Shown here piece by piece: positions 4,116-39,038 of a DNA stretch of 48,502 bases. Source of the stretch: a virus; IMG/VR virus record IMGVR_UViG_3300033145_003419, positions 1-48,502 of that record. One strand, 5' to 3'. The notes under the pieces were generated by a model, which was not told the DNA's origin, searched no databases, and saw nothing but the letters and a program-made list of their open reading frames with translations. Every line of letters starts with the position of its first letter. The first letter of the stretch is position 1. The position numbers and the translations under genes were made by a program.

Positions 4116-6207
<2,092 letters not shown>

Positions 6208-6933: not shown

Positions 6934-6972
6934 GCTATTATCCCGCCTCCACCGATACAGATCATAAGGCAG

Positions 6973-7194: not shown

Positions 7195-7239
7195 CCTCCT
7201 CTGTTGTTGCCCGCAAGCCAGATTGCCTGCTTCGACCTA

Positions 7240-7497: not shown

Positions 7498-7553
7498 AAT
7501 CTCCTTTCAGTTGCTGCTAACCTCGCCAGCCGAGTTGCTATAAAACCTCCTCT

Positions 7554-19835: not shown

Positions 19836-19907
19836 AATTTCATGCCCGGAATCGAACCGGAATCTCCCGATTGGGAATCGGGCATTCTGCCATTGAACTA
19901 CATGCCT
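19836..19907 (-). tRNA. tRNA-Gly (anticodon CCC), acceptor stem imperfect
   Basis: Minus-strand cloverleaf. The D arm contains TAGTTCAATGGCAGAAT. The anticodon stem-loop is CCCGA-TTCCCAA-TCGGG, with anticodon CCC. The T arm is built on GGTTCGATTCC. Encoded CCA lies at 19835-19833, with one extra T before it. The D, anticodon and T arms pair well. Only four inner pairs of the acceptor stem form (CATG/CATG); the outer three positions are A/A, G/A, G/A. A terminator follows at once. It would read GGG codons if functional, but the broken acceptor stem suggests decay or a non-standard role. Confidence 0.8.
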
Positions 19908-23649: not shown

Positions 23650-24128
23650 CGAAGAGAACGGGTGAGCGCTGCAAAGCTCATTCGATCAGGGGCAAGGATA
23701 AGTGTCGTGTCCATGGGGGGATGACACCCGTAAAACACGGCCTCCGCTCGAAGTACAAGGGCCAGGTTTTAGGCGACAGGATACAGGAGCTCATCGACGA
23801 CCCCGACCTGGCCGATGTGAGAATTCAGCTTGCTACATTGATAACCCTGGCGGAGGATCTTCGCGAGAGGATTGAGGGAGCAGGGAGGGTCAACCTGTTG
23901 GACCGAGGCGCCATGATTTCGCTCGCGGTGGAGATAACCAAGGTGATCGAGCGCTACCACAGGATCACTGAGGGCACGAAGCACACAATTCGCATCGAGT
24001 ATATCCAGGTGGTGGTGAATCAGATCGTAAAGGTGGCTGATGAAACGATCAGAGACCCTGCTGACAAGCGGCGGTTCGTCGAACGACTCGGCGGCCTTTC
24101 TCTCCCTGGTCCATCAAGCGCTAACTGA
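23628..24128 (+). CDS. Terminase small subunit-like protein, non-canonical start
   Basis: Frame directly before the large terminase. The first ATG is at 23721, giving 135 residues. However, the frame is open upstream and encodes QCTAIAKRTGERC, then GKDKCRVHGGMTPVKHGL. This is the cysteine/HGG N-terminus widespread in this family. No ATG, GTG or TTG exists between the in-frame stop at 23610-23612 and 23721. An ATC at 23628, eight bases after GGGAG, is exactly where the family begins. Either ATC starts translation, the start was mutated, or it is a sequence error. The rest is helical (DPDLADVRIQLATLITLAEDL...) as in DNA-binding small subunits. Confidence 0.7.
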   Translation: MSQCTAIAKRTGERCKAHSIRGKDKCRVHGGMTPVKHGLRSKYKGQVLGDRIQELIDDPDLADVRIQLATLITLAEDLRERIEGAGRVNLLDRGAMISLAVEITKVIERYHRITEGTKHTIRIEYIQVVVNQIVKVADETIRDPADKRRFVERLGGLSLPGPSSAN

Positions 24129-25548: not shown

Positions 25549-27005
25549 AAGAGCCTGTCGCGATAATAACCAGGGGCAACAAGGTTGTCTCGGGCGCGGT
25601 TCTCAAGGAATACGCGACAAAGCCAAAGTCAAAGCAGCTGTCCCTGGACGCATTCCGCAAACAATACGGACGGCTTGGCCTGGTCGAACCTCACTACCGA
25701 CTCGAGCAGCTCGCGCAGTTGATGGAGCATAACACGTTCCACTCCCGTTGCGTGAAGACAAAAGCCCATGACACCGCCGGTTTGGGTTGGGAGATCAAGA
25801 CCGCCGAGGATCTGGAGGGAGAGGCGTCTAGCGAACAGTACAAGAGCCTGTATGTGTTCCTCTCCTCTCAGTGGGCCCCGCTCACGGTTTCGCTTACCCG
25901 GATGATGACTGACTACGAGTCAATAGGAAACGGGTACCTCGAGGTTATTCGGGAGGACTACCGGCCGGAGGCTCTGGTCGCGGTGATCAAGCACATCCCC
26001 GGCCATACCGTCCGGTTGCACAAGAGCCACAACAAGTTCTGCCAGGTGCGGGGGAATAAGAAGGCGTGGTTTAAGCAGGTCGGATATGAAAAGGACGTGC
26101 ACAGAGGAACGGGTGAGGAGAAGGAGCTCGGGAAGATAGAAGCGGACGCCCGGGCAAACGAGATCCTGCACTTCGCTTCGTATACGTCGCGGTCAGATTA
26201 CTATGGAGTGCCCGATGTTCTGCCGGCGCTGGGGGCAATATTAGGGACGATCGCGGCCCGCGACTACAACATCAAGTTCTTCTCGAACTTCGGGATCCCA
26301 GCATACGCCGTCTATATTACAGGGGATTATGATCTGGGCGAACCGGATGAGAATGGAGAGTACGCGCTCACCAAGCAGGTGAAGAAGTACTTCAATGACC
26401 TCCAGGGGGAGCCTCACTCTACGCTGATACTTGGAGTGCCTTCCGACGTTGGGGGATCGGTGGAGGTGAAGATACAGCCTCTTGCGGTCGAGGTGAAGGA
26501 CGCGTCGTTCAGGTTGTACCGCAAGGACAACCGTGACGAGATACTCTCCGCTCACGGGGTTCCTCCGTATCGCGCTGGGATAGCGGAGACTGGTAGCCTC
26601 GGTGGATCCACGGCTAAGGAGTCTACGCGGATCTACATCGAGAGCGTCATCAACCCCCGGCAGGAGATGATCGAGCAGTATTTCGACCATTTCATCTTGC
26701 CGTCTATGGAGATAACCGACTGGCGCTTCCAGCTGAAAGAAATAGATACCAGTCGGGAGGAGCATGACCTCGAGGTCGCGGGCATGCTATTCGACAAGGG
26801 ATCCATGAAGCCAAACGACCTCATCAGATTTTTCGGCAAACGGTTCGGGCTCGAGCCTGACGAGAAAAACGAGGCGCTGGAGGCTTACTACATCGTGGGC
26901 CAGCGAATAGACGGGGAACCGGAGGCGATAACCGCGGTTCAATCGTTGCACGAGCGCCTGGTGGAGATTGCGAGGAAGGATGCTGGCGAGAAAACTGGCG
27001 CATGA
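25545..27005 (+). CDS. Portal protein (PBSX/HK97 type)
   Basis: 486 residues. QLAQLMEHNTFHSRCVKTKAHDTAGLGWEI, then DYESIGNGYLEVIR and the SDYYGVPDVLPALGAI segment are the wing, stem and clip signatures of the phage_portal family. GGSTAKESTRIYIESVINPRQ marks the C-terminal helix region. The dodecameric ring forms the DNA gate, docks terminase, and seeds capsid assembly. It overlaps terL by four bases and the Mu-F-like gene by 26. Confidence 0.94.
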   Translation: MKEPVAIITRGNKVVSGAVLKEYATKPKSKQLSLDAFRKQYGRLGLVEPHYRLEQLAQLMEHNTFHSRCVKTKAHDTAGLGWEIKTAEDLEGEASSEQYKSLYVFLSSQWAPLTVSLTRMMTDYESIGNGYLEVIREDYRPEALVAVIKHIPGHTVRLHKSHNKFCQVRGNKKAWFKQVGYEKDVHRGTGEEKELGKIEADARANEILHFASYTSRSDYYGVPDVLPALGAILGTIAARDYNIKFFSNFGIPAYAVYITGDYDLGEPDENGEYALTKQVKKYFNDLQGEPHSTLILGVPSDVGGSVEVKIQPLAVEVKDASFRLYRKDNRDEILSAHGVPPYRAGIAETGSLGGSTAKESTRIYIESVINPRQEMIEQYFDHFILPSMEITDWRFQLKEIDTSREEHDLEVAGMLFDKGSMKPNDLIRFFGKRFGLEPDEKNEALEAYYIVGQRIDGEPEAITAVQSLHERLVEIARKDAGEKTGA

Positions 27006-27852
27006 GACCGAGATGTTCCTGGCGTGGTGGGAGGCGACCAAGTCAGCGTCTGATGCCGAGTCCAGGCTAGGCGACGAGCTTGCCATGATGTTTGATGATG
27101 TAGCCAAGGCGATCATCAACAAGCTCAACAAAATGAGGTCTTTGCCATCAAGTGATTCCGGGAGGCAATCCCTTGTGGCTCTTCTCAAGAACGTCAAGTC
27201 GAAGTTCAAGGACACCGTTTTCAGTCACGCAGCCGAGGCCGCTGCCGATGCTCAAAGGGTTGCCAGGATACACATGGGCGTTAAGCCTGGCGAGATATCT
27301 CAGGTGGTGCTGGGGAGGCTGAAGGACAAGGTGTTCGAGGCAATGGAACAGACCATGAACCGTATTGTTGGCGATGTAATGGGAGGCCTCACCGATTCGT
27401 ACAGCCAGGGCCTTGGCATAGACAAGGGCGCACGTAACCTGCGGGAACAGTTCGATGGCATCAAAGATTGGGAAGCAAAGAGGATAGCCCGCACAGAGAT
27501 CAACAGCGCGCAAAGCGGGGTAGCCCATCAGGTTATAGAAGATCACGCTTCATACCGGCAGTGGATCGCTGCTGAGGATGACAGGGTGAGGGACGGGTCT
27601 GATGGTGGGGATGACCATGCGTATCTGCATGGCCAGATAGTCAGGGTAGGGGATCACTATTCCAATGGGCTCATGTATCCGGGGGATACGTCGGGGCCGA
27701 TCGAGAACTGGATCAACTGCCGGTGCCGCGAGGTTGCTTTCAATATGCCCGCCGACGCGATAGCGCCAGCTGGCCTCGATTATTTCTACGAGGGTGACTT
27801 GGTTGAGGCTCCGAAGGTGAAGGCTGATACGGTGACAGTTGAGGTGGCCTGA
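26980..27852 (+). CDS. Mu F/SPP1 gp7-like minor head protein
   Basis: 290 residues from ATG 26980. The long helical first half ends with the conserved RIARTEINSAQSGVAHQV. Then come ASYRQWIAAEDDRVRDG, DDHAYLHGQIV and the closing ENWINCRCREV, all core elements of the Mu_F family (pfam 'phage Mu protein F like'). The CRCRE and DDR...H residues are kept. Such proteins bind the portal and assist head assembly or DNA ejection. Follows the portal as in SPP1, HK97-like and Mu phages. Confidence 0.92.
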   Translation: MLARKLAHETEMFLAWWEATKSASDAESRLGDELAMMFDDVAKAIINKLNKMRSLPSSDSGRQSLVALLKNVKSKFKDTVFSHAAEAAADAQRVARIHMGVKPGEISQVVLGRLKDKVFEAMEQTMNRIVGDVMGGLTDSYSQGLGIDKGARNLREQFDGIKDWEAKRIARTEINSAQSGVAHQVIEDHASYRQWIAAEDDRVRDGSDGGDDHAYLHGQIVRVGDHYSNGLMYPGDTSGPIENWINCRCREVAFNMPADAIAPAGLDYFYEGDLVEAPKVKADTVTVEVA

Positions 27853-27855
27853 CCG

Positions 27856-29271
27856 ATGCCTTTTGCAGGATACGAAGACTTTGATGCATGCGTAGAAGAC
27901 CAGCGGGATCGCGGGGACAATCCCGAGGCATTCTGTGCCTGGCTACATTTGGAGGTCACCGGAGTATGGCCGGCGGCCACGAAGGGAGGAAGTATGGAGG
28001 AAGAGCTTAGCACGATGATACGGAAGGTGCTTGACGCCAAGCTGGGTGAGGGCTGGGTCCGGGCGATATTCCCCACGACCGCTATCTACGTGGTTTATGC
28101 CAATGCCCAGGAAGCGCCCGATGACACGAATGAAAAACTGTTCGAGATCCCATGGAGCTACGACGAGGAGACAGGCTTACTTATAGGTGAGGCCACCGAG
28201 GTCAAGCTCGCCTACGTCGAGAAGCGCATCGCGGAGGAGTTCGGGCCCGAACTTTCCGCCCCGATCGTAGCGAAGAACGTGGAGAAGAGGATAGTCTACG
28301 GCCCCGTGCTGGTCCCCGGCGAGCCCGACCGGGACGGCGAGACCGTGACTGCCGAGAAGATAGAGGAAGTTGCGCACACGTTCCTGAAAGAATACGGCAA
28401 CGTGGACCTGGCGCACTCGCTCAACAACGTAGCCAGACCCGTCGAATCCTACCTGATGCCGGTCGATCTTGACCTCTATGACGTCAGCGTCCCAAAGGGT
28501 ACGTGGATGCTGGGTGCTTATGTGGAAGACGATGACTCATGGCAGGCGGTTAAGGACGGGAAGCTCGGCGGCTTCAGCGTGATGGGCGTACGCAGGGCCG
28601 CGCTGAAGACCGGAATAAAGGCTGGAATCAAGAGCAACGCCATCAAGAGGGTGCTGTTGCGGGACCTCGGTGACGAGTGGGTGGCGACGCATGTCAGCCT
28701 CGTCGAGATCCCCGCTGTTCCAAAGGCTGAGTTCATCGCGGTGAAGAGCAAGAGCTTCTTCTCCCGGTTGATCTCGCTCAAGGAAGGCAGGAGGTTCTCG
28801 GCGACTACGCTGAAGAAGCTGAAGGCCGCGCACACGGAGCTGGCCGCGCTCATCGAAGAAGCCGAGGCTGAAACAAAGGACAAGACTAAGAAGGAGGAAG
28901 ACATGACTGAAGAGGAGATCAAAGAGGCCATGAAGGAGGCCGTCGAGGAGCACGATTCGAGCATCGATGAGAGGATCGCGGCGCTCGAGGCGAAGGTCGA
29001 GGAGGCCACACAGGCCGAGCCGGAGGAGGAACAGGAAGAAGTCGAAGAGAAACCCGCTGAGAAGAAGGAACCCGAAGAGGAGCCCGAGGACTTTGAGGCG
29101 CTCAAGGCGCAGATCGCCGAGCTTGAGGCTTTCCAGGCGGACGTTGTCAAGAAGCTCGACATCAAGCCGGCAAGCAAGGCCATAGTCGGCCAGGACGGCG
29201 AGGACGGCGAGGAGCCGAAGGCAGAGAAGGACTTCGGCGGACGCGACGTCTACGGGCGCAAGCGCAGCTAG
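27856..29271 (+). CDS. XkdF-like prohead protease fused to scaffold
   Basis: 471 residues. A short N-terminal segment PFAGYEDFDACVEDQ...PEAFCAWL is a small cap domain. The central protease (about 145-320) has YGPVLVPGEPDRDGETVTA, GNVDLAHSL and GGFSVMG, matching XkdF-type serine proteases with His and Ser as catalytic candidates. From about 330 it is a charged coiled coil, the scaffold. Two internal ATGs have strong ribosome sites: 27994 (GGGAGGA) and 28903 (AAGGAGGAAG). The second gives a separate scaffold as in the lambda C/Nu3 pair. Confidence 0.9.
   Translation: MPFAGYEDFDACVEDQRDRGDNPEAFCAWLHLEVTGVWPAATKGGSMEEELSTMIRKVLDAKLGEGWVRAIFPTTAIYVVYANAQEAPDDTNEKLFEIPWSYDEETGLLIGEATEVKLAYVEKRIAEEFGPELSAPIVAKNVEKRIVYGPVLVPGEPDRDGETVTAEKIEEVAHTFLKEYGNVDLAHSLNNVARPVESYLMPVDLDLYDVSVPKGTWMLGAYVEDDDSWQAVKDGKLGGFSVMGVRRAALKTGIKAGIKSNAIKRVLLRDLGDEWVATHVSLVEIPAVPKAEFIAVKSKSFFSRLISLKEGRRFSATTLKKLKAAHTELAALIEEAEAETKDKTKKEEDMTEEEIKEAMKEAVEEHDSSIDERIAALEAKVEEATQAEPEEEQEEVEEKPAEKKEPEEEPEDFEALKAQIAELEAFQADVVKKLDIKPASKAIVGQDGEDGEEPKAEKDFGGRDVYGRKRS
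28903..29271 (+). CDS. Nested in-frame scaffold protein
   Basis: 122 residues from the internal ATG 28903, which has AAGGAGG at ideal distance. All Glu/Lys-rich helix (EEIKEAMKEAVEEHDSS, EERIAALEAKVEEAT-like), typical of a head scaffold. The same carboxy-terminus as the protease fusion would let both co-assemble, then be degraded. This is a prediction from the ribosome site and the lambda parallel. Confidence 0.6.
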   Translation: MTEEEIKEAMKEAVEEHDSSIDERIAALEAKVEEATQAEPEEEQEEVEEKPAEKKEPEEEPEDFEALKAQIAELEAFQADVVKKLDIKPASKAIVGQDGEDGEEPKAEKDFGGRDVYGRKRS

Positions 29272-29296
29272 GACAACAAGGGAATAGTAGGCAATG

Positions 29297-29319
29297 GCCG
29301 CTCTTCAAGGGCGGTTTTT
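29297..29319 (+). terminator. Weak terminator between protease and capsid genes
   Basis: Seven-pair stem with two G-U pairs (GCCGCTC/GGGCGGT), five-base loop TTCAA and five T. It lies directly before the capsid ribosome site. It may partly reduce read-through or stabilise the capsid message. Confidence 0.55.
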
Positions 29320-29336
29320 AATGTAAGGAGGAAGAA

Positions 29337-30347
29337 ATGAGTAAGCTGACCAACGTTGACATACTCAGCCAGATAGAAGGCGCGATGAAGACCATCACGG
29401 TGACGGACCTCGGCCAGAGTGTCCTGCAGCCGGAGAAGTTCGAGCGCTTCGTTCGCGCCATGCAGGCGAAGACCGCGATCCTCCCCGAGGCGAGGTTCAT
29501 CGAGATGCAGTCGCAAATCGTGGACATCGACAGGGTGGGCTTCGTGGGGCGCATTCTCGTGAGTGGCACCGATGCCGCCGGCGCCCACAAGACCCTCGCG
29601 GAGAACGAGTTCGCCAAGCCGCAGTTCGACACCAACAAGCTTACGGCCAGGGAGCTGCAGGCGGTCGTGGGGCTGCGTGACACCGCCGCTCGGCGCAACA
29701 TCGAGAAGGAGGCCTTCGAGGACACTCTCGTGGACCTCATGGGTGAGGCCGCAGGCCGCGACCTGGAGGAGTGGGCGATACTCGCCGACACCGACATAGC
29801 CACGGACGACGACCTGTACCTGAGCCTCACCGATGGGTGGGCCAAGCTCGCCGAGAACGCGGTGTACGGTGTTGGTGCAAGTAAGGACTTCAACCCTGCC
29901 GGTGAGACCTACCCTGAGGACATGTTTGATGCGATGATCGGGGCGCTCCCCAAGCAGTACCTGCAGACAAGGAGCGAGTGGAGGCTCTACGTGAGCTTCT
30001 CGGTAGAGGATGCTTACAAGAACCTCCTCAAGGCCCGGGGGACCGCGCTGGGTGACCTGGCGCTGACCAAGGGCGAGTCTATCCCTTATAAGGGGATCCC
30101 GGTCGTCTACTGCCCGATCATCGAGCGGTCGGCCACCGTCGGTAACGGCGGTGCCGGAAACATAGCGCTGCTCGGGCATCCGGACAACATGGCATGGGGC
30201 GTGTTCCATGAGGTGACCGTCGAGACCGAGAGAGAGGCCAAGGGTCGCAGGACTGACTTCGTGCTCACCATCGAGGGCGACTCCGGCTACGAGGACGAAA
30301 ACGCGGCGGTCGTGTCCTACATTGAGCAGGAGGTATCGGGTTCGTAA
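29337..30347 (+). CDS. Major capsid protein (HK97 fold)
   Basis: 336 residues, AAGGAGGAAG before the ATG. MQAKTAILPEARFIEMQSQ, RVGFVGRILVSG, FDTNKLTARELQAVVGLRD (E-loop/spine region), then EEWAILADTD and the A-domain end WGVFHEVTVETEREAKGRRTDFVLT. This fits the PBSX/XkdG-like HK97-fold family. It is the main virion component; T=7-type heads are usual. No decoration protein follows; the glycan cassette is inserted here instead. Confidence 0.92.
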   Translation: MSKLTNVDILSQIEGAMKTITVTDLGQSVLQPEKFERFVRAMQAKTAILPEARFIEMQSQIVDIDRVGFVGRILVSGTDAAGAHKTLAENEFAKPQFDTNKLTARELQAVVGLRDTAARRNIEKEAFEDTLVDLMGEAAGRDLEEWAILADTDIATDDDLYLSLTDGWAKLAENAVYGVGASKDFNPAGETYPEDMFDAMIGALPKQYLQTRSEWRLYVSFSVEDAYKNLLKARGTALGDLALTKGESIPYKGIPVVYCPIIERSATVGNGGAGNIALLGHPDNMAWGVFHEVTVETEREAKGRRTDFVLTIEGDSGYEDENAAVVSYIEQEVSGS

Positions 30348-30429
30348 GTGTTGGCATCCGCAAGTGTTGCCAGGGAGGGGGCCGTCGGGGTCCCCTCCCA
30401 CCCCCCTACTTGGAAGTTGTGGGTACATC

Positions 30430-31335
30430 GTGTCTGCCTTGAGCGTGATTTTGCCTGCTGATAACGAGGGCCGACGAGAATCGTTACTCAAGAAGACTCG
30501 GGAGCATGTCAAGACAGCACTCCCAGCTGCCGAGATTGTCATATCCCGTGGCTCCGTAGACCCGTACAACAAGGCTCAAGTTTGTAACCGCGGCGCGAGG
30601 GATGCCGGTGGCGATGTCCTGGTGTTCGTGGATGCCGACATGATCCATCATCCAAACGTCTTGAGGCGGGCGGCTGCTGTGAAGACGTGGGGCGTCCCGC
30701 GTTCGGAGGTCCGCAACCTCTTGCCAGGGGAATCTCCTGGAGGCAGATACAGTGTGCGGCCTGGGTCAATCTTGGGTAGAGGAGGCCTGTTTGCCTTCAC
30801 TCGGGAGGCATTCGATTGTGTGGGCGGCTTCGATGAAGGGTTTGTGGGCTGGGGCTGTGAAGACGAGGCGCTGTATGTGGTCGCCACTGAACTGTTGGGA
30901 GCACCTGAGGACCTGGGTGACGAACCCGCGTATCACCTGCCCCATGAGCACCAGCCGGAAAGGGCGGAGGTCAGGCGGAACCTGCATAGTTTCAACAGGA
31001 AAAGGCTCGCGGAAATAAAGCAAGGAGGATGCATGCGGATCAAGGTCGAGAATACGTCCAAGGCAACCATCGCACGTGGGGCCATGGTATTTTCCCCGAG
31101 TGAGACCGTGATGGTGGAGGTCGATGAGTACAGGCTGAAGGAGATTCGGTCTTGTCGCCGGTTGTCGGTTGTGGTTGTCGACGGTGAGATGATCGATGAG
31201 GACGAGGCTGGCGAAGTAAAGCCGATGCCGGATGAGAATCCATTCATGGAACCTCCCCGCCATATCTGCGCATGCGGGTTCATCGCGAAGAACAAAGCCG
31301 GTCTCAAGGCTCATCAGAGAGCGTGCAAGGAGTGA
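30430..31335 (+). CDS. GT2 glycosyltransferase fused in frame to a small C2H2 protein
   Basis: 301 residues from GTG 30430. The first 200 residues are a GT-A fold: VSALSVILPADNEG, the DxD motif VDADM, then GGFDEGFVGWGCEDE, the galactosyl/GalNAc-transferase pattern. The frame then passes without stop into about 100 residues that start MRIKVENTSKATIARG and end with a C2H2-like HICACGF...LKAHQRACK. At that border an AAGGAGG-type site sits before ATG 31033, so the second part is probably also made alone. It looks like a fusion through a lost stop codon. The transferase would move a nucleotide-activated sugar; its acceptor is unknown. Confidence 0.82.
   Translation: MSALSVILPADNEGRRESLLKKTREHVKTALPAAEIVISRGSVDPYNKAQVCNRGARDAGGDVLVFVDADMIHHPNVLRRAAAVKTWGVPRSEVRNLLPGESPGGRYSVRPGSILGRGGLFAFTREAFDCVGGFDEGFVGWGCEDEALYVVATELLGAPEDLGDEPAYHLPHEHQPERAEVRRNLHSFNRKRLAEIKQGGCMRIKVENTSKATIARGAMVFSPSETVMVEVDEYRLKEIRSCRRLSVVVVDGEMIDEDEAGEVKPMPDENPFMEPPRHICACGFIAKNKAGLKAHQRACKE
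31033..31335 (+). CDS. Nested small protein with C2H2-like end
   Basis: 100 residues from internal ATG 31033 with AAGGAGG five bases upstream. The beta-rich N-terminus (IKVENTSKATIARGAMVFSPSETVMV) resembles small head-associated proteins found just after capsid genes. The C-terminus has Cys-Cys-His-Cys spacing of a zinc finger. It may be the original post-capsid gene, split from the capsid by insertion of the glycosyltransferase. Confidence 0.6.
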   Translation: MRIKVENTSKATIARGAMVFSPSETVMVEVDEYRLKEIRSCRRLSVVVVDGEMIDEDEAGEVKPMPDENPFMEPPRHICACGFIAKNKAGLKAHQRACKE

Positions 31336-31338
31336 TCC

Positions 31339-32193
31339 GTGCGTGTTGGCTACATTGGACACTTTGGAGCGTGGCATACGGAACTGGAAGTTGCTAACGC
31401 CCTCGAGATGTACGCCAGGGTACATCGCTACCACTACTCTCAACTGGACAGACAGCGGTTCACCGAGCGTGAGTATGACCTCGTTCTGACCTCGTTGCCA
31501 CACAAGTTTTCGCTGGGGTTTTGGAGGGCGCAGAAAGGTATCAAGGTGGCCCACTACTTTGACCTGGTGCAAGGGTTCTGTGGGCGGGACAAGATATATT
31601 TCCCGGCATTGCGAGCATTTGACCTGGTGCTGTCGCCGGATGGCATTGACTCAGGTCCCTATGAACAGGCAGGAATCAAGCGGCAGTATTTTCAGCAGGG
31701 GTATGACCCGGGCGTGTACCACCCTGTCCAGCGCGAGTGCCAGAGGGATGTCGGATTCATCGGCCACGCTTACAACGGCAGGGGCAAACTGCTGAAGCGG
31801 GTAAGCCGGCGGTTCAACCTGGAGCACGTTGGACAGAGCAATGAGTGCCAGGGCGAGAATCACGCTGCGTTCTGTGCTTCATCCAGGGTAATGCTTGCGC
31901 CGAACGCAGGGACCGATGTTCCCGGCTACTGGTCTATCAGGGTGTATCTCCACCTTGCCTGCCGCGCTTTTGTCCTGCACCAGTATGTGGCGGGGATAGA
32001 GGAGGAGTTCACAGATGGTGAGCACCTCGTTCTCTGGCGAGACGAAAAGGATCTGCTGAGCAAGATCGCCTACTACTTGGAGCACCCTGGGGAACGGGAA
32101 AGGATAGCTGCGGCTGGACATGAGCACGTTCAGCGGTACATGTGGGATGAACGAGTTAAATCGATGTGGCGGTTGATAACGGACTTGAAATGA
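31339..32193 (+). CDS. GT-B glycosyltransferase (CgeB/Glyco_trans_1_2-like)
   Basis: 284 residues. The N-terminal half has RVGYIGHFGAWHTELEV and AHYFDLVQGFCGR. The C-terminal half has VGFIGHAYNGRGKLL, then SSRVMLAPNAGTDVPGYWSIRVYLHLAC and the trailing TDGEHLVLWRDEKDLLSKIAYYLEHPGERERIA. The latter is the classical nucleotide-sugar-binding end of Glyco_trans_1_2 proteins. It probably extends a glycan begun by the GT2. Starts three bases after the previous stop. Confidence 0.86.
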   Translation: MRVGYIGHFGAWHTELEVANALEMYARVHRYHYSQLDRQRFTEREYDLVLTSLPHKFSLGFWRAQKGIKVAHYFDLVQGFCGRDKIYFPALRAFDLVLSPDGIDSGPYEQAGIKRQYFQQGYDPGVYHPVQRECQRDVGFIGHAYNGRGKLLKRVSRRFNLEHVGQSNECQGENHAAFCASSRVMLAPNAGTDVPGYWSIRVYLHLACRAFVLHQYVAGIEEEFTDGEHLVLWRDEKDLLSKIAYYLEHPGERERIAAAGHEHVQRYMWDERVKSMWRLITDLK

Positions 32194-32828
32194 TCTACGT
32201 GTTCGGAGATTCACATGCGAGAAAGTTCGAAGATGTATATGAAGTCCGTTGGCAGAGAGGTCTTACGTGTCACGGCTTCTGTTTGGGGAATATAGGTGAG
32301 CAACCGAAACGCTTGAGTGATTTGCCTAAGTTGAGTGAGAAGGGTCGGGCAATTTACCTTGAGATGATAAAAGAGGTAGGTCATGACGATGCAATCCTCT
32401 TCGTATTAGGTGAGTGTGATTGCCGACTACAGTTTTATCATCACCACAAGCGAGACGGTATGCCAATAACAGCCCTGATAGATGACACGGTTGGAAGGTA
32501 CATAGCCTTCTTAGAGATGGTAGAGGTGGGCAAGGCGGTATTGGACGTTATCCCGGCGGTGAATCAGAGGAACGTATACGAGTTCCCCCACTACGCAACG
32601 CTGGAGAAGAGGGCTGAGATAACGGTGATGTTCAACGAGACGCTGGAGTTGGCTTGCCGAGAAGCTAACGTGCCATTTATCGATACGTGGAAGGCGCTCG
32701 CAGACGAGAACGGGGGTTTGAGGAGCGAGTTTATGGGGCCTGATAGGTTCCATGTAGCGGATGCAATAGTGCCGTACATAGAAGCCCAACTGAGAAAACA
32801 CTTTCCAGAGAAGATAAGGATCAAATGA
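32190..32828 (+). CDS. SGNH-like hydrolase/esterase
   Basis: 212 residues from ATG 32190, an ATGA overlap with the preceding transferase. Block I is VFGDSHARKF with nucleophile Ser. Block III shows ILFVLGECDCRLQF in place of the usual GxND. Block V is MGPDRFHVADA with Asp and His. These fit SGNH (GDSL-type) enzymes that remove or add acyl groups on carbohydrates. In this cassette it could acetylate or deacetylate the sugar. Codon usage is AT-richer than flanking genes. Confidence 0.72.
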   Translation: MIYVFGDSHARKFEDVYEVRWQRGLTCHGFCLGNIGEQPKRLSDLPKLSEKGRAIYLEMIKEVGHDDAILFVLGECDCRLQFYHHHKRDGMPITALIDDTVGRYIAFLEMVEVGKAVLDVIPAVNQRNVYEFPHYATLEKRAEITVMFNETLELACREANVPFIDTWKALADENGGLRSEFMGPDRFHVADAIVPYIEAQLRKHFPEKIRIK

Positions 32829-33592
32829 TGGCGTTAGTCGAACGTGAAATACACGGCTCCAGGATGCTTCTCGATGATCGGGACCCGGGGTTGTCGAAAG
32901 AATTGCTAGAGAAGGGCACCCGGGAGGATGAAGCTCCCCACCTGCTTGCGGATCTGGTACAGCCCGGCTGGACGTGCCTGGAGATCGGGGCCAACCTTGG
33001 CTTCTACGCGCTTATCGAGGCGAAGGCCGGCGCGAAAGTCTACGCTATCGAGCCTGTCCCCCGGTGTATCGACATCCTTGGTCAGAATGTGGAGCTAAAC
33101 GGGTTTAACAACGTGTCGATCCACGAGGTCGCAATCGGCAACAGGAACGGGACGGCGAAGTTCAACGAGTCTGCGGCCACCAACTGGGGCAGGATGACGG
33201 AGGCAAAGGCCCGGCCCCAGCAGGGCCAGGAGATCACGGTGCTGGAGATGAAGCTCGACTCGTTTGTTGCAGCGGAGGGGATTGAACGGATAGACCTCTT
33301 GAGGTTCGACGTTGAGGGATACGAGGTGGAGCTGATCGAGGGGGCGCAGAAGACGATCTCGGAGATGCTCGTGGGGTCATGGATGTTCGCGGAGTTTCAT
33401 CCCAGGTGCTTTGACGATCCTGTGGCAGACCTCCAGCCAACGGTTGAGAACATAATCAGTCACGGCTTCGTACCCCGCCACGTGATACCGGTCAAAGCCC
33501 TGGAGGACGTGCCGACGGAAAGGTTTGCGGAAGTGCTTTGCGGCAGGTATTGCGGCACGGCGCCGGTGGTGTTCCTCGAGAAATGCGTTTAG
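32825..33592 (+). CDS. FkbM-family SAM methyltransferase
   Basis: 255 residues. The SAM site is CLEIGANLGFYAL followed by VYAIEPVPR; RIDLLRFDVEGYEVELIEGA is the FkbM hallmark. The enzyme methylates hydroxyl groups, often on sugars, so it would O-methylate the glycan made by the neighbouring transferases. Four-base overlap with the SGNH gene and 10-base overlap with the next gene. Confidence 0.92.
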   Translation: MMALVEREIHGSRMLLDDRDPGLSKELLEKGTREDEAPHLLADLVQPGWTCLEIGANLGFYALIEAKAGAKVYAIEPVPRCIDILGQNVELNGFNNVSIHEVAIGNRNGTAKFNESAATNWGRMTEAKARPQQGQEITVLEMKLDSFVAAEGIERIDLLRFDVEGYEVELIEGAQKTISEMLVGSWMFAEFHPRCFDDPVADLQPTVENIISHGFVPRHVIPVKALEDVPTERFAEVLCGRYCGTAPVVFLEKCV

Positions 33593-34597
33593 GAATAATC
33601 ACCTACACAAACCTTGCCTCTGGTATCGGGCTTTTCGGATACGAGTTCTGGAAATACCTTGAAGCCGATTCGATCCTGTCTGTTCCCAACAAAGTTAAAG
33701 GGCAGGACACATGGACAGAGAGGCAACTGACCCTGAGCCACCCGCCAGGGCCGAAGGACGTTGAGAGCTATATAGAGCGGTTCAGGCCCGACACTATTTT
33801 ATTTCTGGAAACGCCGTTCAGTAACACTATGTCCCGTGTCGCCAGAGGACGTGGAGTCAAGACGGTCGGGATCCCGATGCACGAATCACGGGCTTCCGTT
33901 GGTATGCAACCCGACCTGTTGATATGTACCAGCTGTGAAGCGTGGAGAAAGAGTAATCACCCCAACAAGCGGTTGATGTTTCTGCCGATAGGGTCGGAGT
34001 TGTTTCCTTTCCGGCAACGAACCGGACACACCTTCATCCATAACATCGGCTACGGCGGGGTTCATGACAGGCGACAGACGGCAGCGGTAGTTAAGGCGTT
34101 TCAGGAATTGGAGAATCCGAAAGCCCGACTGATACTCCGGACCCCAACAAGAGTGGCCTGCCGGGTCGAGGGTAAAAGACAGGCGAATCACTTACATCAA
34201 GAAGAACTACCTGAACCCTGCTGACGTATATGCAGATGGTGACATTGTGATAGCGCCGATGGCCTACGGTGGGTATGAGCGGATTGTCCTTGAGGCGATG
34301 GCGTCTGGGCTGCCTGTGTTGACCACCGATGCAGACCCGATGAACTTGTTTCAACATGACCCCGACCTGCTAGTAGAGCCGTGCAGGCAGTATGAGTTCT
34401 CCGAGCAGTGGGTTGTCGACACCATCTACAACGAGGTGTCGGTTGAGGCCCTATACAACAAACTCAAGTGGCTGTTGACTATCGACACCGAGAAGTACAG
34501 CCGTCGGGCAAGACGACAGGCCGAGGCTCAAAGCTGGGAGAGTCAGGAGATCGACTACAAGAGCGTGTGGCTTAACGCGATAGAGGAGCTGCTGTGA
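33583..34597 (+). pseudogene. GT-B glycosyltransferase split by one-base frameshift
   Basis: Two frames cover one protein. The first (ATG 33583 to TGA about 34224) has LGIITYTNLASGIGLFGYEF, then VGIPMHESRASVG and reaches RLILRTP. The second continues RRITYIKKNYLNPADVYADG and IAPMAYGGYERIVLEAMASGLPVL, the GT-B nucleotide-sugar site. Removing one C from the CCCC run at 34142-34145 restores a single frame (RTQQEWPAGSRVKDRRITYIK). So the gene is a frameshift mutant, a phase-variable gene or a sequencing error. Both halves show normal coding character. Confidence 0.85.
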
Positions 34598-34998
34598 GTT
34601 ATTGCACACCCAAGGAGGTCAAGGAGTTCACGGGTTACAAGGAATCCGACTTTGACATCGTGGATGCGGGCGCGTTCGACAGTCTCATCGAGAAGTGGAT
34701 CAAGCAGGCCGATGCGATCATCGACGCCGACCGCAGAAGATCCTTTGATCCTGAGGACGTGGATGCCCAGTATGCAGAGTTACTCAAGAATATTTCTGTC
34801 CGCATAGTCGCCAATTACATGACCAAGGCCATCCAGTTGCGCACTTCACCGGTCGAGAAAATAGACGACTTTACTGTCCGTGTTGTGGACAGCGGCTTTG
34901 TAACACAGGCAATTCGTGACGACATGCAACGCTTGCCCCGGGCCATCCAATTCGCCATCGCTATCTGCAATCGGCTTACTGAGGAGGAGGAGGCGTGA
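34594..34998 (+). CDS. Head-tail connector (adaptor)
   Basis: 134 residues from GTG 34594. SYCTPKEVKEFTG, then LIEKWIKQADAIIDADRRR and ISVRIVANYMTKA match the helical connector family of HK97 gp6/SPP1 gp15. It docks under the portal to extend the DNA channel. Overlaps the neck gene by four bases. Confidence 0.88.
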   Translation: MSYCTPKEVKEFTGYKESDFDIVDAGAFDSLIEKWIKQADAIIDADRRRSFDPEDVDAQYAELLKNISVRIVANYMTKAIQLRTSPVEKIDDFTVRVVDSGFVTQAIRDDMQRLPRAIQFAIAICNRLTEEEEA

Positions 34999-35426
34999 TT
35001 GAGGTCGAGATCGATCTCAGCGAACTCCAGGAAGCCACACGCGAGTTCCCAGGGGTCATCGAGAGGGCCCTCGAGCTCACCGTCATGGAGTTGGACTCTA
35101 ACCTGCGCAAAGAGTCGCCGGTGGATCACGGCAGGCTGGCGGGCTCCTGGCAGGCCGAGCAAATCAGCCCTCTTGAGTGGGGCCTGGACTCCGGTCTCGA
35201 GTACACGATGGCCGTGAATGAGGGAACACCCCCGCATCGCATAGAGCCGGTGTCCGCCAAGGTCTTACGGTTCGAGATCGATGGCCAGGAGATCTTCTGC
35301 AAGTACGTCGATCACCCCGGGACCGACCCCAACCCCTATATTGACAGGTCGATAGAGGCCACCGCAGCTCGGACTGACGAGTTCGCGAGCACGGCGATAG
35401 AGGAGGTTATCGGTGGAACTGCATGA
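34995..35426 (+). CDS. HK97 gp10-like neck/tail-completion protein
   Basis: 143 residues. Pattern LSELQEATREFPGVIERALELTV, SPVDHGRLAGSWQAEQ, YTMAVNEGTPPHRIEP and PNPYIDRSIEAT fits the HK97-gp10 family (SPP1 gp16/17-like), which joins head and tail. Overlaps the next gene by 14 bases. Confidence 0.92.
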   Translation: MIEVEIDLSELQEATREFPGVIERALELTVMELDSNLRKESPVDHGRLAGSWQAEQISPLEWGLDSGLEYTMAVNEGTPPHRIEPVSAKVLRFEIDGQEIFCKYVDHPGTDPNPYIDRSIEATAARTDEFASTAIEEVIGGTA

Positions 35427-35844
35427 GCTGCTCGAGGAGATCAGGGGTAACATAACAAGCACTCTCAAGAAGGCCCGGCTGGCGAACGCGATCAATTATG
35501 GCGAGCGTGTGCGCGTGGACAAGCTCCGCCCACCGGTTATCTGGGTACTGCCCTCGGACTCCCCGATAGATCACAGCGGCATGGGGGAGATGTGGACATA
35601 CAGGTTCGCCGTGGCAGCCGTGGTAAAGGACACAGATCCGGACAGGGGCCGCGTGAAGGCCAACGAGATAGCGGGGAAGGCCAGCGCCGCCCTGGTCAAG
35701 ACCCGGACGCTCGGCAAGACGGTTCGCGACGTCAGGCGGGTCAAGTACCTTCCGGGCGATGTGAAAGGCATGTCGGCGGAGCAGTTGCACGCGGCGGGTT
35801 ACATGATGGAAGTCAGGTTCAGGTACCTGGATAAGGAGGACTGA
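35413..35844 (+). CDS. Tail terminator/completion protein
   Basis: 143 residues from GTG 35413. LHELLEEIRGNITSTLKKA leads to IWVLPSDSPIDHSG, a strand-rich centre and YMMEVRFRYLDKED. The position and length match the tail terminator (lambda gpU/HK97 gp11-like). Family by position and pattern. Confidence 0.8.
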   Translation: MELHELLEEIRGNITSTLKKARLANAINYGERVRVDKLRPPVIWVLPSDSPIDHSGMGEMWTYRFAVAAVVKDTDPDRGRVKANEIAGKASAALVKTRTLGKTVRDVRRVKYLPGDVKGMSAEQLHAAGYMMEVRFRYLDKED

Positions 35845-35845
35845 C

Positions 35846-36862
35846 ATGGAGATATTGAGATATGCGGGCTTTGTAGAGGAAACCTCGTATGCGGAGAGCC
35901 CCGCGCCGGCCGCGGCTTTCTGTGTAGATGAGACGTCGGCGTCGCTGGATGCCGCAACCGAGGCGCAGATCGTCTACGAGGGGAGCCTCGGGAGAGGATC
36001 CCGGGTGCATCGTCCTGGGTTCTATGCTGTGGATGGTGACATAGAGTACGCGTTCGACGCCAGAACGATCGGCTGGCTGCTCAAGTGGGCCCTGGGAGGA
36101 TACGCGTTCAGCGGCTCCGGGCCGTACACGCATGAGATCTATGGGAACGACGATGTGTTCCTGCCGTCTTTCGCCTGCCACCTGGGGAAGGACAAGCTCG
36201 ATGGCAGTAATTTCGAGCACGTCTTCTCCGGGTGCGTCATCGATTCACTGGAGCTTTCCGTGGAGGACGGGTACACCATGGCGAAGGCGGCCATAAAGGC
36301 GGCCAAGGATTCCAAGGGGACGATACTCGCCAGGTCCGCGGTGGAGTTGTTGCTCCCTGAAGAGTACCCACTTGTGTTTCACGAGGTGACCGTGAATAGG
36401 CAGAACTCCGACATCACGGCGAAAGTCAAAGGGCTTACCTTCGAGATCGGCAACAGCCTCTCACCGGAATCGGGCAGGTCCCTGGGGAGCAGGTTCGCCC
36501 GCAGGATACCCGCCGGCGCGCGAGAGGTAAAGCTCTCGCTCAACATGTACTACGAGGACCTCGACACGCTCGCGTTGCTTTGGGGCGCCGACAGCGGGCC
36601 CTCGGACGATGGAACGACAGAGGTACCGATAGTAATAACCTTCGATGCCGGTGACGACGGCAGCATGGACATCACGATACCCAGGTTTGTGCTCTCCCAG
36701 GTCCCGCTTCAGCCGTCGGGCAAGGACGAGATCGAAATGGGCACGGAGGGCGTTGCGATAACCGATGCGATTCTGCTCGCCGATGAGGTGACGACGGTTC
36801 ATTCGGAGCTCCTGGTGACGCTCGAGAACGACCAGGACGAGATGACAGTGGGAGGTAGCTGA
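35846..36862 (+). CDS. Tail tube protein
   Basis: 338 residues. RYAGFVEETSYAESPAP, then the repeated beta pattern EYAFDARTIGWLLKWALGGY, CVIDSLELSVEDGYTMAKA and a second DITAKVKGLTFEIGN half match the phage tail tube 2 family. Longer than lambda gpV, consistent with an extra domain. SD GGAGGAC precedes. It precedes two tail chaperone frames, which is the standard order. Confidence 0.88.
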   Translation: MEILRYAGFVEETSYAESPAPAAAFCVDETSASLDAATEAQIVYEGSLGRGSRVHRPGFYAVDGDIEYAFDARTIGWLLKWALGGYAFSGSGPYTHEIYGNDDVFLPSFACHLGKDKLDGSNFEHVFSGCVIDSLELSVEDGYTMAKAAIKAAKDSKGTILARSAVELLLPEEYPLVFHEVTVNRQNSDITAKVKGLTFEIGNSLSPESGRSLGSRFARRIPAGAREVKLSLNMYYEDLDTLALLWGADSGPSDDGTTEVPIVITFDAGDDGSMDITIPRFVLSQVPLQPSGKDEIEMGTEGVAITDAILLADEVTTVHSELLVTLENDQDEMTVGGS

Positions 36863-36863
36863 T

Positions 36864-37307
36864 ATGGACGAGCTGTTGACCAAGGCGCGGTTGCTGGAGG
36901 GTGTTGAGCGGACGGAACAGGTGGAGATACCACGACTTAATGGCAAGGTCGAAATCAGACCCTTGACGGAGGCACAGTGGACCGAAGTCCGGGCTATTAT
37001 GGTCAAGGACACAACCGTCACAATGTCAAGGCGGGGTTCGCAGATTGACGCTGCCATTGCGCAAAGGAACGACAGTGCCTCCGACCTGTTGATCTGTCGT
37101 TACGGCCTTGTCGAGGAGTGGACAGACAAAGAGTTCAACAGGCTTCCTGCTGGTACGCTCGCCGAGGTATCAGAGAAGATACAGGAACTTAGCGGGGTCT
37201 CGAAGAAACCCAAGAACGCGGAAGCCTTGAAAGCGGCGATGGCCGGGTTTCGCGAGGAGGGAATTGACGATAGCCTACCTTCACCTGAACGGGGTTCCGC
37301 TAGTTAA
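36864..37307 (+). CDS. Tail assembly chaperone, first frame
   Basis: 147 residues. EIRPLTEAQWTEVRAIM and DLLICRYGLVEEWTDKEF are typical of gpG/TAC-like proteins. It starts two bases after the tail tube gene and overlaps a second coding frame at 37264-37395, the expected gpG/gpGT arrangement. Confidence 0.88.
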   Translation: MDELLTKARLLEGVERTEQVEIPRLNGKVEIRPLTEAQWTEVRAIMVKDTTVTMSRRGSQIDAAIAQRNDSASDLLICRYGLVEEWTDKEFNRLPAGTLAEVSEKIQELSGVSKKPKNAEALKAAMAGFREEGIDDSLPSPERGSAS

Positions 37308-37395
37308 GAGCCAATCGGAAATGACGCCACTACAAGGATTGTTTCTGTCCTTTGCGATTCCCGAAGTCGTCAACCAAATACATGGAGCTAGATAA
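37264..37395 (+). CDS. Tail assembly chaperone, second frame (frameshift or coupled start)
   Basis: Plus-one frame relative to the first chaperone, about 43 residues from TTG 37264: TIAYLHLNGVPLVKSQ, EMTPLQGLFLSFAIPEVV. It ends TAA overlapping the tape measure ATG. It is coding-like, open upstream to about 37230, and short as gpT-type extensions go. A programmed +1 (or -2) shift in the GGGTTTCGCGAGGAGGGAAT region, or internal initiation at the TTG behind GAGGAGG, would express it. Confidence 0.75.
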   Translation: MTIAYLHLNGVPLVKSQSEMTPLQGLFLSFAIPEVVNQIHGAR

Positions 37396-39038
37396 TGACA
37401 ACCGTGGACATCCTCGTATCAGCAACCGACCAGGCATCGAATGTTCTTGGCAACGTGGGGGATACCGGCGAAGAGGCAGGACACAGCATCGAGAAGGGAT
37501 TCCTTGCTGCCGGTGCTGCGGTAACTGCGGCCGGTGCCGCGGCTGAGGGTATAGCACGCAAGTTTGCGGGCGTGGCCGAGCAGAACACAAAACTGGCCAA
37601 CGCGATTGGGCTTAGCGATACGGCCATGAATGCCCTGACCCGTTCAACATCTAATGCCACCTTCCCGCTGGAAGAAGTCCAGGACCTGTTCAGGCTCGGG
37701 AGCCAACTTGGCCTTGAGGGGGCGGATTCCTTGAGAGAGTATGCCCTCTACTGGGACATGGTCGGTGACGCCACCGGGGAATCCAGCTTGGCATTAGCGG
37801 AAGCCGCTCTCGGTCTTGGGGCGCTGGGTATCAAGGCTGACGACGTCGCCTCTTCTGCGGACGCATTGGGTTATGCATATCGGAACCTTCCGGGCGTTGT
37901 CGGTCAATTTCTAAATAGCATTAGTAGGCTGGCTCCTGAACTTAGCGAAATGGGCCTGGGCCTGGAAGATACGACGGCCATGATAGGGTTGTTGGCGGAG
38001 AACGGCATTACAGGCAAGGCAGCGATAACGACATTCAGGCAGGCCGTTAATGAGTCGGGCGGCGATTTGGATCTGCTCTATGATAGCCTCAATGTTGTTT
38101 GCAAACAGTACCCTGTTAATGCCGCAAGCGTGGACGATTACCGCCAGAATATTGAAGGTTGTAGCGTTGCACTGGAAGAAGACGCGGAGGCTAATGCCGC
38201 TTGCCTCACGCCAATGCAAAGGGTCAAACAGGAAGCCGACGAACTGGCGTTTCGGTTTTCTTTTCTGCATAAGATAATCGGCACCGTATCTGCTGTGCTG
38301 ACTACGTTGGGGCCAATACTCCTGGGAGTTGCAGCCGCTAAATACATCCTCTCGGGTTCTATGATAGCAACCGTGTTAGCCGGCGCCAAGGAAGCGTTTA
38401 TGATCACCTACTGCACCGGCGCTATCATTGCGCATAAAATTGCCACCTGGGCTGCCACCCTTGCCACTGGAGCCTGGGCCGCTCTCACAACCGGCACGCT
38501 GATTCCAACTTTGGGCGCTGCGGCCGTAGCGGCGGGGGCCACGGCCTTGGCCATTGGCGGAATAACCTTGTCCTTTGCGGCTCTTGCCCTGGCTATCTAC
38601 GGGGTGGTCAAAGCGTACCAGGCATTCACCTTGGCCCAGAGAGAGCATAGGGAGGCCATGAGCAATGAACTGGAAGGGATCAAGTCGCAGTACGAGGCCG
38701 GGGTAGATGTCAGGGCGTATTATGAGAATCCAGACCTTGGGATAGACCCACTTTGGCGGCGTGCGGTACTGGAGTTCATAGAGCAACTTGAGAAAACCCC
38801 ACCGACTGGAGAGAAGCGTTCTTTCGGAGGCGGCTCCGGAGCTTCGGCCGCAGGCGGAGGTGGAAGCGGAGGTGGAAGCGGAGGTGGAGCCGGAGGCGGA
38901 GGCGGAGGTACACCATCGGCGATGGAACATACCGGCACTATCACGGTCAAAGGCGTCAACGACAAGGATCAGACAGTCGCCGTTGCCGAGATAATAATGA
39001 ATGAACTCCGCGTAGACTTGAGGGGGGCGGCGGTCTAA
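37395..39038 (+). CDS. Tape measure protein
   Basis: 547 residues. Helical N-terminus with a ZIP-like ATDQASNVLGNVGDTGE and Ala-rich helix, central helices (FPLEEVQDLFRLGSQLG; LAPELSEMGLGLEDTTAM) as in TP901-type tape measures, several hydrophobic segments around 295-415 (TVSAVLTTLGPILLGVAA, TLIPTLGAAAVAAG, LALAIYGVV). A GGGSGGGS-type run lies at about 475-510. The length suggests a tail near 80 nm. The Gly run, encoded by GGAGGT-like repeats, is a flexible hinge and could slip. Confidence 0.9.
   Translation: MTTVDILVSATDQASNVLGNVGDTGEEAGHSIEKGFLAAGAAVTAAGAAAEGIARKFAGVAEQNTKLANAIGLSDTAMNALTRSTSNATFPLEEVQDLFRLGSQLGLEGADSLREYALYWDMVGDATGESSLALAEAALGLGALGIKADDVASSADALGYAYRNLPGVVGQFLNSISRLAPELSEMGLGLEDTTAMIGLLAENGITGKAAITTFRQAVNESGGDLDLLYDSLNVVCKQYPVNAASVDDYRQNIEGCSVALEEDAEANAACLTPMQRVKQEADELAFRFSFLHKIIGTVSAVLTTLGPILLGVAAAKYILSGSMIATVLAGAKEAFMITYCTGAIIAHKIATWAATLATGAWAALTTGTLIPTLGAAAVAAGATALAIGGITLSFAALALAIYGVVKAYQAFTLAQREHREAMSNELEGIKSQYEAGVDVRAYYENPDLGIDPLWRRAVLEFIEQLEKTPPTGEKRSFGGGSGASAAGGGGSGGGSGGGAGGGGGGTPSAMEHTGTITVKGVNDKDQTVAVAEIIMNELRVDLRGAAV

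Follow-up and report, generated by a model that had tools for sequence, protein, structure and literature searches.

Sugar-attaching enzyme sets beside the capsid genes of tailed phages, often with one enzyme fused to a small head-operon protein, suggest glycosylation of the phages' own particles

Phage glycosyltransferases and gp35-like proteins

That phages may glycosylate their own virions is already known from the mycobacteriophages, whose glycosyltransferases are said to act on proteins of the capsid and the tail tube (Freeman et al. 2023, Cell Host Microbe, as cited in PMC12619734, PMC11600133 and PMC13313380); according to the same citing papers, the glycosyltransferase genes of cluster O adjoin an O-methyltransferase gene. 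As far as the citing passages describe that system, it resembles the locus reported here in having several phage-encoded glycosyltransferase genes with a methyltransferase alongside, and differs from it in that a gp35 fusion is absent from those descriptions. Mycobacterium phage phiGD20-1 encodes a weak relative (gene 109, 25% identity) of the GT2 domain described below, but there the glycosyltransferase genes occupy 52.9-58.2 kb of a 59.1-kb record, close to its right end, and the 7.6 kb shown contain no capsid gene. Serotype-converting phages also carry sugar-modifying genes, but their gtr operons encode membrane flippase-like and polytopic transferase proteins, whereas none of the 80 cassette proteins considered here (from 19 loci) looks polytopic by its sequence, more than one hydrophobic 19-residue window being found in none of them and a single one in four. 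Virus-encoded DNA glycosyltransferases are known as well (Pyle et al. 2024, cited in PMC12619734), and DNA is a frequent target of phage glycosyltransferases. In the parts of the open-licence literature that were covered, no report was found of a capsid-adjacent hotspot with glycan cassettes between the major capsid protein (MCP) and connector genes, or of gp35-glycosyltransferase fusions.

The small domain in these fusions matches that of Mu gp35 / FluMu HI1506 (PDB 2OUT) and YqbF (PDB 2HJQ). In Mu and PBSX the gp35/YqbF-type gene sits after the MCP gene, the same place as here; what differs is that the domain is here additionally joined to glycosyltransferases, and that its free form frequently carries a C2H2-like finger at the end.

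The cassette between the capsid and connector genes

The window, by which we mean the whole 48,502-nt stretch of the IMG/VR virus record IMGVR_UViG_3300033145_003419 that was analysed, carries five enzyme genes in the order GT2, GT-B, SGNH, FkbM and a frame-broken second GT-B; like all features given below they lie on the plus strand. Their left border is the MCP gene (29337..30347), which follows an AGGAGG Shine-Dalgarno sequence and matches phrog_1623 ('virion structural protein', E 1.5e-75), and whose named relatives are annotated as major capsid or XkdG. To the right lie a first connector-like gene (34594..34998; phrog_27112, of unknown function, E 2.5e-16), which has a weak match to the phrog_442 head-tail adaptors (E 0.018) and a place conserved in relatives, and then a gene for an HK97 gp10-like tail completion or neck protein (34995..35426; PF04883; phrog_5, E 1.3e-8). 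The genes are closely packed, with a 3-nt gap upstream of GTB1, 4-nt overlaps at GTB1/SGNH, SGNH/FkbM and GTB2/connector, and a 10-nt overlap at FkbM/GTB2. An earlier note on this DNA, made from the letters alone, had described the five genes, their order, their place and the frame break, all of which are borne out, and its view that a late head operon contains genes for sugar modification is supported as well. Megablast of window positions 24000-39000 against named phages gave no match.

The first gene proved to be more than the note's GT2 gene. The GT2 domain itself is real: it is galactosyltransferase-like (PF02709, E 2.4e-9; also PF10111, PF00535 and phrog_1721), contains DAD and GWGCED motifs, and makes up the N-terminal part (30430..31032) of an ORF with a GTG start. 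That ORF (30430-31335) continues in frame into a Mu gp35-like small protein with its own internal ATG (31033..31335), which had been overlooked; it accounts for the last 100 codons (31033-31332, stop 31333-31335), carries a zinc-finger-like C-terminal tail, and is homologous to the small gene that follows the MCP gene in relatives. Since the ORF ends in this gene, the cassette flanks a small head-operon gene on both sides. A predicted internal ribosome-binding site and start (AGGAGG, 4 nt, ATG) lies at 31023..31035, and the pattern AGGAGGN{4,9}ATG occurs 18 times in the window against 2.94 expected from shuffles.

The profile of the gp35-like protein matches 2OUT (4-106, E 1.5e-6), a zinc-finger protein ranking higher owing to the tail. 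Its AlphaFold model is confident over residues 1-50 (pLDDT about 97), and the fold of this beta domain aligned (VIA-align) to YqbF with Z 5.5 over 51 residues and to 2OUT with Z 3.9; the match to YqbF is not specific by itself, as L30-like ribosomal proteins tie with it at 5.5. Among families, the window protein found only phrog_2498 (E 0.06), and Pfam searches with three relatives gave no such family. The tails of gp35-like proteins show a zinc-finger or HeH/Rho_N-like motif, a possible pointer to nucleic acid as their partner.

GTB1 (31339..32193) is a GT-B glycosyltransferase (PF13524, E 1.4e-20). It is followed by a putative SGNH/GDSL-like hydrolase or acyltransferase gene (32190..32828), an assignment that we take to rest on the GDSH and DxxH motifs: these blocks (GDSH and DRFH in the window) recur as GDSH and DSIH in a 21% identical gene of another cassette (L120), but the PF13472 match (E 1.2e-4, 23.1 bits) is under the Pfam cut-off of 32.9, a PDB sequence search gave nothing better than E 0.14, and the AlphaFold model (pLDDT 41.7) is unusable. 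The G+C content of this gene is 48.7%, where the other head and cassette genes measured have 53-62%. The FkbM-type methyltransferase (32825..33592; PF05050, E 1.2e-17, 65 bits against a cut-off of 22.7; phrog_8156) has a SAM-binding motif, LEIGANLGFYAL, that is conserved in A5, and is 59%, 41% and 39% identical to relatives in L123, L003 and L098. GTB2 is split over two frames, into an N-terminal part (33583..34224) and a C-terminal part (34247..34597; PF13692, E 7.1e-6, just under the cut-off), which are 50% and 61% identical to an intact 348-residue homologue in L098; both frames are open together only from about 34,133 to about 34,221, and the break may be biological or an assembly error. 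The "complete pathway" that the earlier note saw building, acylating and O-methylating a glycan is not supported, given that the Pfam matches of the window cassette include no sugar-nucleotide synthesis gene, that GTB2 is broken, and that the weakly assigned SGNH-like enzyme may remove acyl groups rather than add them.

The slot in relatives and beside unrelated capsids

A scan with the window MCP retained the best 80 of 84 relatives. MCP relatives form 65 clusters, 37 of which have only a short gap between the MCP and connector genes, 16 a glycan cassette and one (L046) non-glycan genes, with 11 left unclassed. The enzymes vary, and include LicD, TagD-like cytidylyltransferase, CDP-glycerol transferase and NeuB. 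Cassette homologues occurred as 96 ORFs within the interval and 2 outside it over 96 loci, a count biased by queries that themselves came from the interval. On the MCP tree (53 rows, with L046 and the 11 unclassed clusters left out) five changes are needed, but the starred branches force only one and the backbone is not resolved; cassettes in the phrog_1623 family may have had a single or a repeated origin.

The gp35-like domain lies after the MCP gene and before the connectors in 31 of the 37 short-gap clusters and in each of the 14 cassette clusters with a contig that extends far enough to include it. In all of those 14 it is borne by an enzyme ORF, after which 12 have a free gp35-like gene; in most fused enzymes the beta domain is kept and the tail missing. 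The fusion could be imagined as a recent duplication of the adjacent free gene, an idea we rejected: in 17 of the 19 genomes having both copies (the exceptions being L032 and L093), the nearest match of the fused domain is a fused domain of another locus and not the free copy beside it, so the fusions are old and maintained. The window domain is nearer to a free copy (51% identity, L031) than to any fused one (43%), and its own fusion may therefore have arisen recently, when a stop codon was lost.

Searches that began from the enzymes, in viral contigs, led only to head operons: 3 of 3 loci for GTB1, 5 of 5 for a GTB-GT8-gp35 family and 18 of 18 for a GT-B-gp35 family, though several of these loci are one contig or close duplicates. 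In L098, relatives of FkbM and of the two GT-Bs again stand together, next to an unrelated capsid gene, and the GTB1 counterpart is 54% identical over nearly its full length. Glycan genes also lie beside capsids of phrog_10 (L099, L124, L127, L128), phrog_422 (L118) and phrog_267 (L120), unrelated to the phrog_1623 type of the window, whose MCP showed no similarity to those of L099 and L118. An FkbM scan gave 41 loci, the 10 best of which (at least 35% identity) are in head blocks, with the cassette preceding the protease and MCP genes in L126 and L127; L130, the only locus inspected among the other 31, holds a long run of glycan genes and no recognised head gene.

The earlier note had looked to conserved synteny with capsid genes for support, and it is found, both in the cassettes of 16 of the 65 MCP clusters and in the enzyme-first loci. 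Its author knew of no such set at this place, which holds for named phages (tblastn found no GTB1 relative in 50,697 phage records and no match to two fused enzymes, and FkbM matches reach at most 29% identity) but not for uncultivated ones, many of which have related cassettes there; a cassette unique to the window phage is rejected on that ground.

What the enzymes may modify

Sets of sugar-attaching enzymes that can be swapped lie beside the capsid gene in many tailed phages, one of the enzymes often being fused to a small head-operon protein, which suggests that these phages glycosylate their own particles during assembly. For the window, the probable reading is a virion-glycosylation set, expressed late and housed at an accessory position within the head operon, in which we infer the virion to be the glycan acceptor. 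The MCP, cassette and connector genes form a tight plus-strand block that would presumably be read as one late transcript. To judge by their families, the glycosyltransferases would draw on host sugar nucleotides to attach a short glycan to some protein of the head during its assembly, likeliest the MCP or the gp35-like protein, with FkbM O-methylating it and the SGNH-like enzyme editing its acyl groups. The joined gp35-like domain, which we infer to be a tether, would keep one enzyme at the head; in the window ORF, read-through would give the GT2-gp35 fusion and initiation at 31033 the free gp35-like protein, two forms that most relatives would supply from two gene copies. Cassettes swapped as units would give each phage a different coat, which might, speculatively, alter how it is seen by surfaces, grazers, receptors or antibodies.

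A wider proposal is put forward tentatively, at somewhat under even chances: that a "glycan island" next to the capsid gene is common to unrelated tailed phages, an exchangeable set of sugar enzymes in which a gp35-like domain, captured by the terminal transferase, fixes that enzyme to the head under assembly, each lineage painting its own capsid, with the window ORF yielding both anchored enzyme and free head protein through its internal start. In phrog_10-type phages (L126, L127, L139) there are slight signs that another small domain, unrelated to gp35, might serve the same end. If true, capsid glycosylation would be a frequent modular trait of uncultivated phages and not an actinobacteriophage curiosity, with a recognisable address (after the MCP gene) and a recognisable handle (the gp35-like domain on an enzyme), so that sugar-coated capsids could be predicted from sequence alone; it would also give gp35-like proteins their first use, and offer a means of directing enzymes to phage heads.

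The enzymes might instead modify host surface polysaccharide, with lysogenic conversion or superinfection exclusion as the outcome, and simply be located in the head operon. Bacterial polysaccharide loci commonly contain members of the FkbM, GT and SGNH families, the relatives' LicD, TagD-like, CDP-glycerol transferase and NeuB genes fit such a role, and the window phage has a serine integrase, which makes lysogeny likely. We nevertheless consider this unlikely, for the genes sit in late head operons of phages whose MCPs belong to at least four unrelated families, the enzymes are fused to a head-operon domain, and the cassettes have no flippase, polymerase or Gtr-like membrane protein, in keeping with the lack of polytopic proteins. 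The earlier note had allowed that the genes might prove to lie mainly in host polysaccharide clusters; for GTB1, 198 genomes of one bacterial phylum gave weak matches in 17, the best 33% over 100 of 284 residues as against the nearly full-length relative in L098, the GT-B-gp35 family matched in 4 of the 198, and two MAGs containing MCP relatives had no GTB1 match.

Comparably improbable is a site that tolerates recombination and gathers moron genes, with gp35 fusions as by-products of insertion and enzymes of no constant virion role. The highly variable contents of the slot, the non-glycan L046, the broken GTB2, the free-type gp35 domain of the window and the lower G+C of its SGNH-like gene all suit such a site, but glycan genes in 16 of 17 filled slots (15 of 16 among clusters whose long gap was measured or inferred, L050 and L055 counted and L046 not) would then need chance, and the fused domains are ancient and have stayed in frame. 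Glycosylation of phage DNA, a frequent enough target, and one near which zinc-finger or HeH/Rho_N-like tails could keep the enzymes, is very unlikely, in that no base-hypermodification gene was found among 10 early/mid genes (Pfam) or 20 genes (PHROG) of the window, most fused enzymes retain the beta domain and lack the tail, and FkbM, SGNH, LicD and NeuB are, to our knowledge, not DNA-modification enzymes.

Some observations count against virion glycosylation itself, namely the frame break in GTB2, the non-glycan slot of L046, the perhaps nucleic-acid type of the gp35-like tail motif, the closeness of the window gp35 domain to a free copy, the gene order in L126 and L127, and the glycan run of L130 away from any recognised head gene.

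The enzyme block of the window phage

By its PHROG matches the window has the gene plan of a temperate, siphovirus-like phage: within its 48,502 bases the virus record encodes a serine integrase (phrog_95), terminase, portal, MuF-like protein, head protease and major capsid protein (MCP; phrog_1623, 29337-30347, plus strand), with further matches to neck/tail completion, tail tube-like, tail chaperone, tape measure and fibre-like proteins and an amidase. Between the MCP and the first connector-like gene, which starts at 34594 and forms the right border of the block, the earlier note had placed five enzymes of glycan modification, and all five had Pfam matches: a GT2 in the N-terminal part of ORF 30430-31335 (PF02709, E 2.4e-9; PF10111, E 3.3e-7), a first GT-B (GTB1, 31339-32193; PF13524, E 1.4e-20), an SGNH-like protein (PF13472, E 1.2e-4, under the Pfam cut-off), an FkbM protein (PF05050, E 1.2e-17) and the C-terminal part of a second GT-B (GTB2; PF13692, E 7.1e-6, slightly under the cut-off). 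The block is as tight as described, with junctions that overlap by 4-10 nt or, once, lie 3 nt apart, and GTB2 is indeed spread over two frames (33583-34224 and 34247-34597), both open simultaneously only at about 34,133-34,221.

The first ORF does contain a GT2 domain, but the note overlooked its second part, a 100-aa protein running from the codon at 31033 and homologous to the gene immediately 3' of the MCP in relatives. A profile of 23 such sequences matched a Mu-like prophage gp35 protein (PDB 2OUT) at E 1.5e-6, outranked by a zinc-finger protein because of the tail of the gp35-like protein; Pfam and PHROG searches gave no gp35 family match. AlphaFold modelled, with confidence, a small alpha-beta domain whose pLDDT is about 97 in residues 1-50; in fold comparison it matched YqbF (Z 5.5) and 2OUT (Z 3.9), with ribosomal L30 equally high. 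There is no stop codon between the GT2 and the gp35-like part, and translation from 30430 must therefore yield a fusion; initiation at ATG 31033, which has AGGAGG upstream, would yield the free protein. This AGGAGG-before-ATG pattern, found 18 times in the window versus 2.94 in shuffles, also lies upstream of the MCP. The nearest relative of the window MCP (L002, 68%) has the same arrangement, its internal ATG preceded by a purine-rich AAGGGAG, and the window domain itself is closest to a free copy (L031, 51%).

The MCP-connector interval among capsid relatives

Three scans for MCP relatives (the last represented by the best 80 of 84) and one cellular-genome scan (two loci) gave 96 loci, window included, with an MCP among the matches listed, which formed 65 clusters at 95% MCP identity. 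On those matches, the interval held a cassette of sugar-modifying genes in 16 clusters, a short gap in 37 and something else in one, with 11 not classed. The gap was bimodal, at 41-1,417 bp in short-gap clusters and 2.2 to 4.7 kb in cassettes, where measured. A gp35-like gene was present in 31 of the 37, and 15 clusters had a long gap or a far-downstream gp35-like domain, with glycan genes in 14 and other genes in L046 (6901-9696). Counted among the 16 were L050 and L055, whose contigs stop short of the connector, yet show glycan genes. In Methanobacterium virus Drs3 (MCP 34.5%) the interval was empty, at 191 bp.

Cassette contents varied: a single FkbM-GT2-CDP-glycerol transferase protein (L003); sugar-nucleotide dehydrogenase, TupA-like ATP-grasp, methyltransferase, rhamnosyltransferase-like and GT-B genes (L011/L012); epimerase variants (L023, L067); methyltransferase, cytidylyltransferase, LicD and GT-B (L025, L028); and a B12-binding radical SAM protein (L050:3007-4317). 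On an MCP tree of 53 rows parsimony put cassettes in five places, far fewer than the 13.9 in shuffles, and a single origin may also be compatible with this distribution. Homologues of cassette proteins in the 96 loci numbered 96 ORFs inside the interval (146 of 1,020 kb) and 2 outside, a count biased towards the interval because the queries were taken from it. A crude test of 80 proteins encoded by the cassettes of 19 loci found none with more than one hydrophobic 19-residue window and four with one. In 198 genomes of one phylum, which may not be the one that the phage infects, GTB1 had weak matches in 17 and the GT-B-gp35 family had matches in 4.

One phage group has a family of 140-160 aa proteins directly 3' of the MCP (L025:1416-1877, without Pfam match; L022:3565-4047; L028:9082-9510; L026:9056-9529; L027:9048-9497; L050:1539-1961), whose gene precedes a methyltransferase wherever the contig extends that far.

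Enzyme-gp35 fusions and unrelated capsids

All 14 cassette clusters whose contig extends to it carried a gp35-like domain joined in frame to an enzyme, C-terminal in 13 and N-terminal in L032; a free gp35-like gene followed in 12, the window and L002 having the fused copy only. The partners were GT2 (window), GT2 with CDP-glycerol transferase (L002, and with FkbM added L003), CDP-glycerol transferase (L093), GT-B with a second GT-like part (L022, L025, L028, L103, L104), and another GT-B family, without Pfam match and recognised by motif and context (L011, L023, L058, L064 and others). In 17 of the 19 genomes with both, the fused domain resembled a fused domain of another genome more than it did the free copy beside it (exceptions L032, L093). 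We tentatively suggest at least three separate fusion groups, tentatively because the domain tree was built from 50-residue sequences and has no support values.

Searches were also begun from the enzymes. GTB1 gave three loci, all adjoining an MCP of an unrelated type (phrog_10). There the MCP is followed by a small protein whose finger tail is the same as that of the gp35-like protein, then by FkbM (39% identity to the window), GTB1 (54%), an intact GTB2 (50/61%), GT2 and the connectors. The GT-B-gp35 family was in head operons at 18 of 18 loci, one (L118) beside a phrog_422 MCP, and the GTB-GT8-like-gp35 family at 5 of 5, several of these loci being the same contigs as, or near copies of, those found by MCP. 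FkbM gave 41 loci, of which the 10 best (35% or more) lay in head blocks. Eight of these are flanked by the MCP or small protein on one side and the connectors on the other, within the reach of the contigs, and in two (L126, L127) the cassette precedes the protease and MCP genes; the only one examined of the other 31 (L130) had a run of glycan genes and no recognised head gene. SGNH gave three loci with the same match (21%), and in the one looked at (L120) it sat in a cassette after a phrog_267 MCP. Comparison of the window MCP with those of L099 (phrog_10 type) and L118 found no similarity, so the place is common to phages with no sequence relationship between their capsid genes.

The L120 cassette also encodes a NeuB-family synthase and a cytidylyltransferase (6476-7751), possibly for phage-encoded synthesis of a sialic-acid-like sugar. 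In phrog_10-type phages, GT2 enzymes begin with another small domain (L126:26-1726, L127:4325-6052, L139:4277-6001), which resembles the free small protein that follows the MCP in L099 (best E 7e-4, six-sequence comparison) and is possibly a second, independent tether.

A proposed role, and its precedents

We propose that the cassette would be co-expressed late with the head genes, that the gp35-like domain would tether the enzyme, and that a glycan would be transferred onto a head protein, O-methylated and edited in its acyl groups, with sugar nucleotides presumably supplied by the host in the window phage. If the break in GTB2 is real rather than an assembly error, it suggests that the glycan of the window phage would be shorter than that of the L098-type (phrog_10) relatives. 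Searches of 50,697 named phage records with GTB1 and with two fused enzymes found no relative, and in open-licence papers we found no account of the glycan hotspot or of gp35-enzyme fusions. Mycobacteriophage enzymes are described as glycosylating capsid and tail-tube proteins (Freeman 2023, as cited in PMC12619734, PMC11600133, PMC13313380); unlike in the window, the GT genes of one mycobacteriophage relative lie near the genome end.

Elsewhere in the window, the minus strand encodes in its early region a HicB-like antitoxin-domain protein (2469-3095) and an ankyrin-repeat protein (8433-9077). It also encodes one protein that joins a DNA N6/N4 methyltransferase to an Mrr-type endonuclease domain (4116-5801) and a single tRNA-Gly gene (CCC; 19838-19906), surrounded by plus-strand genes.
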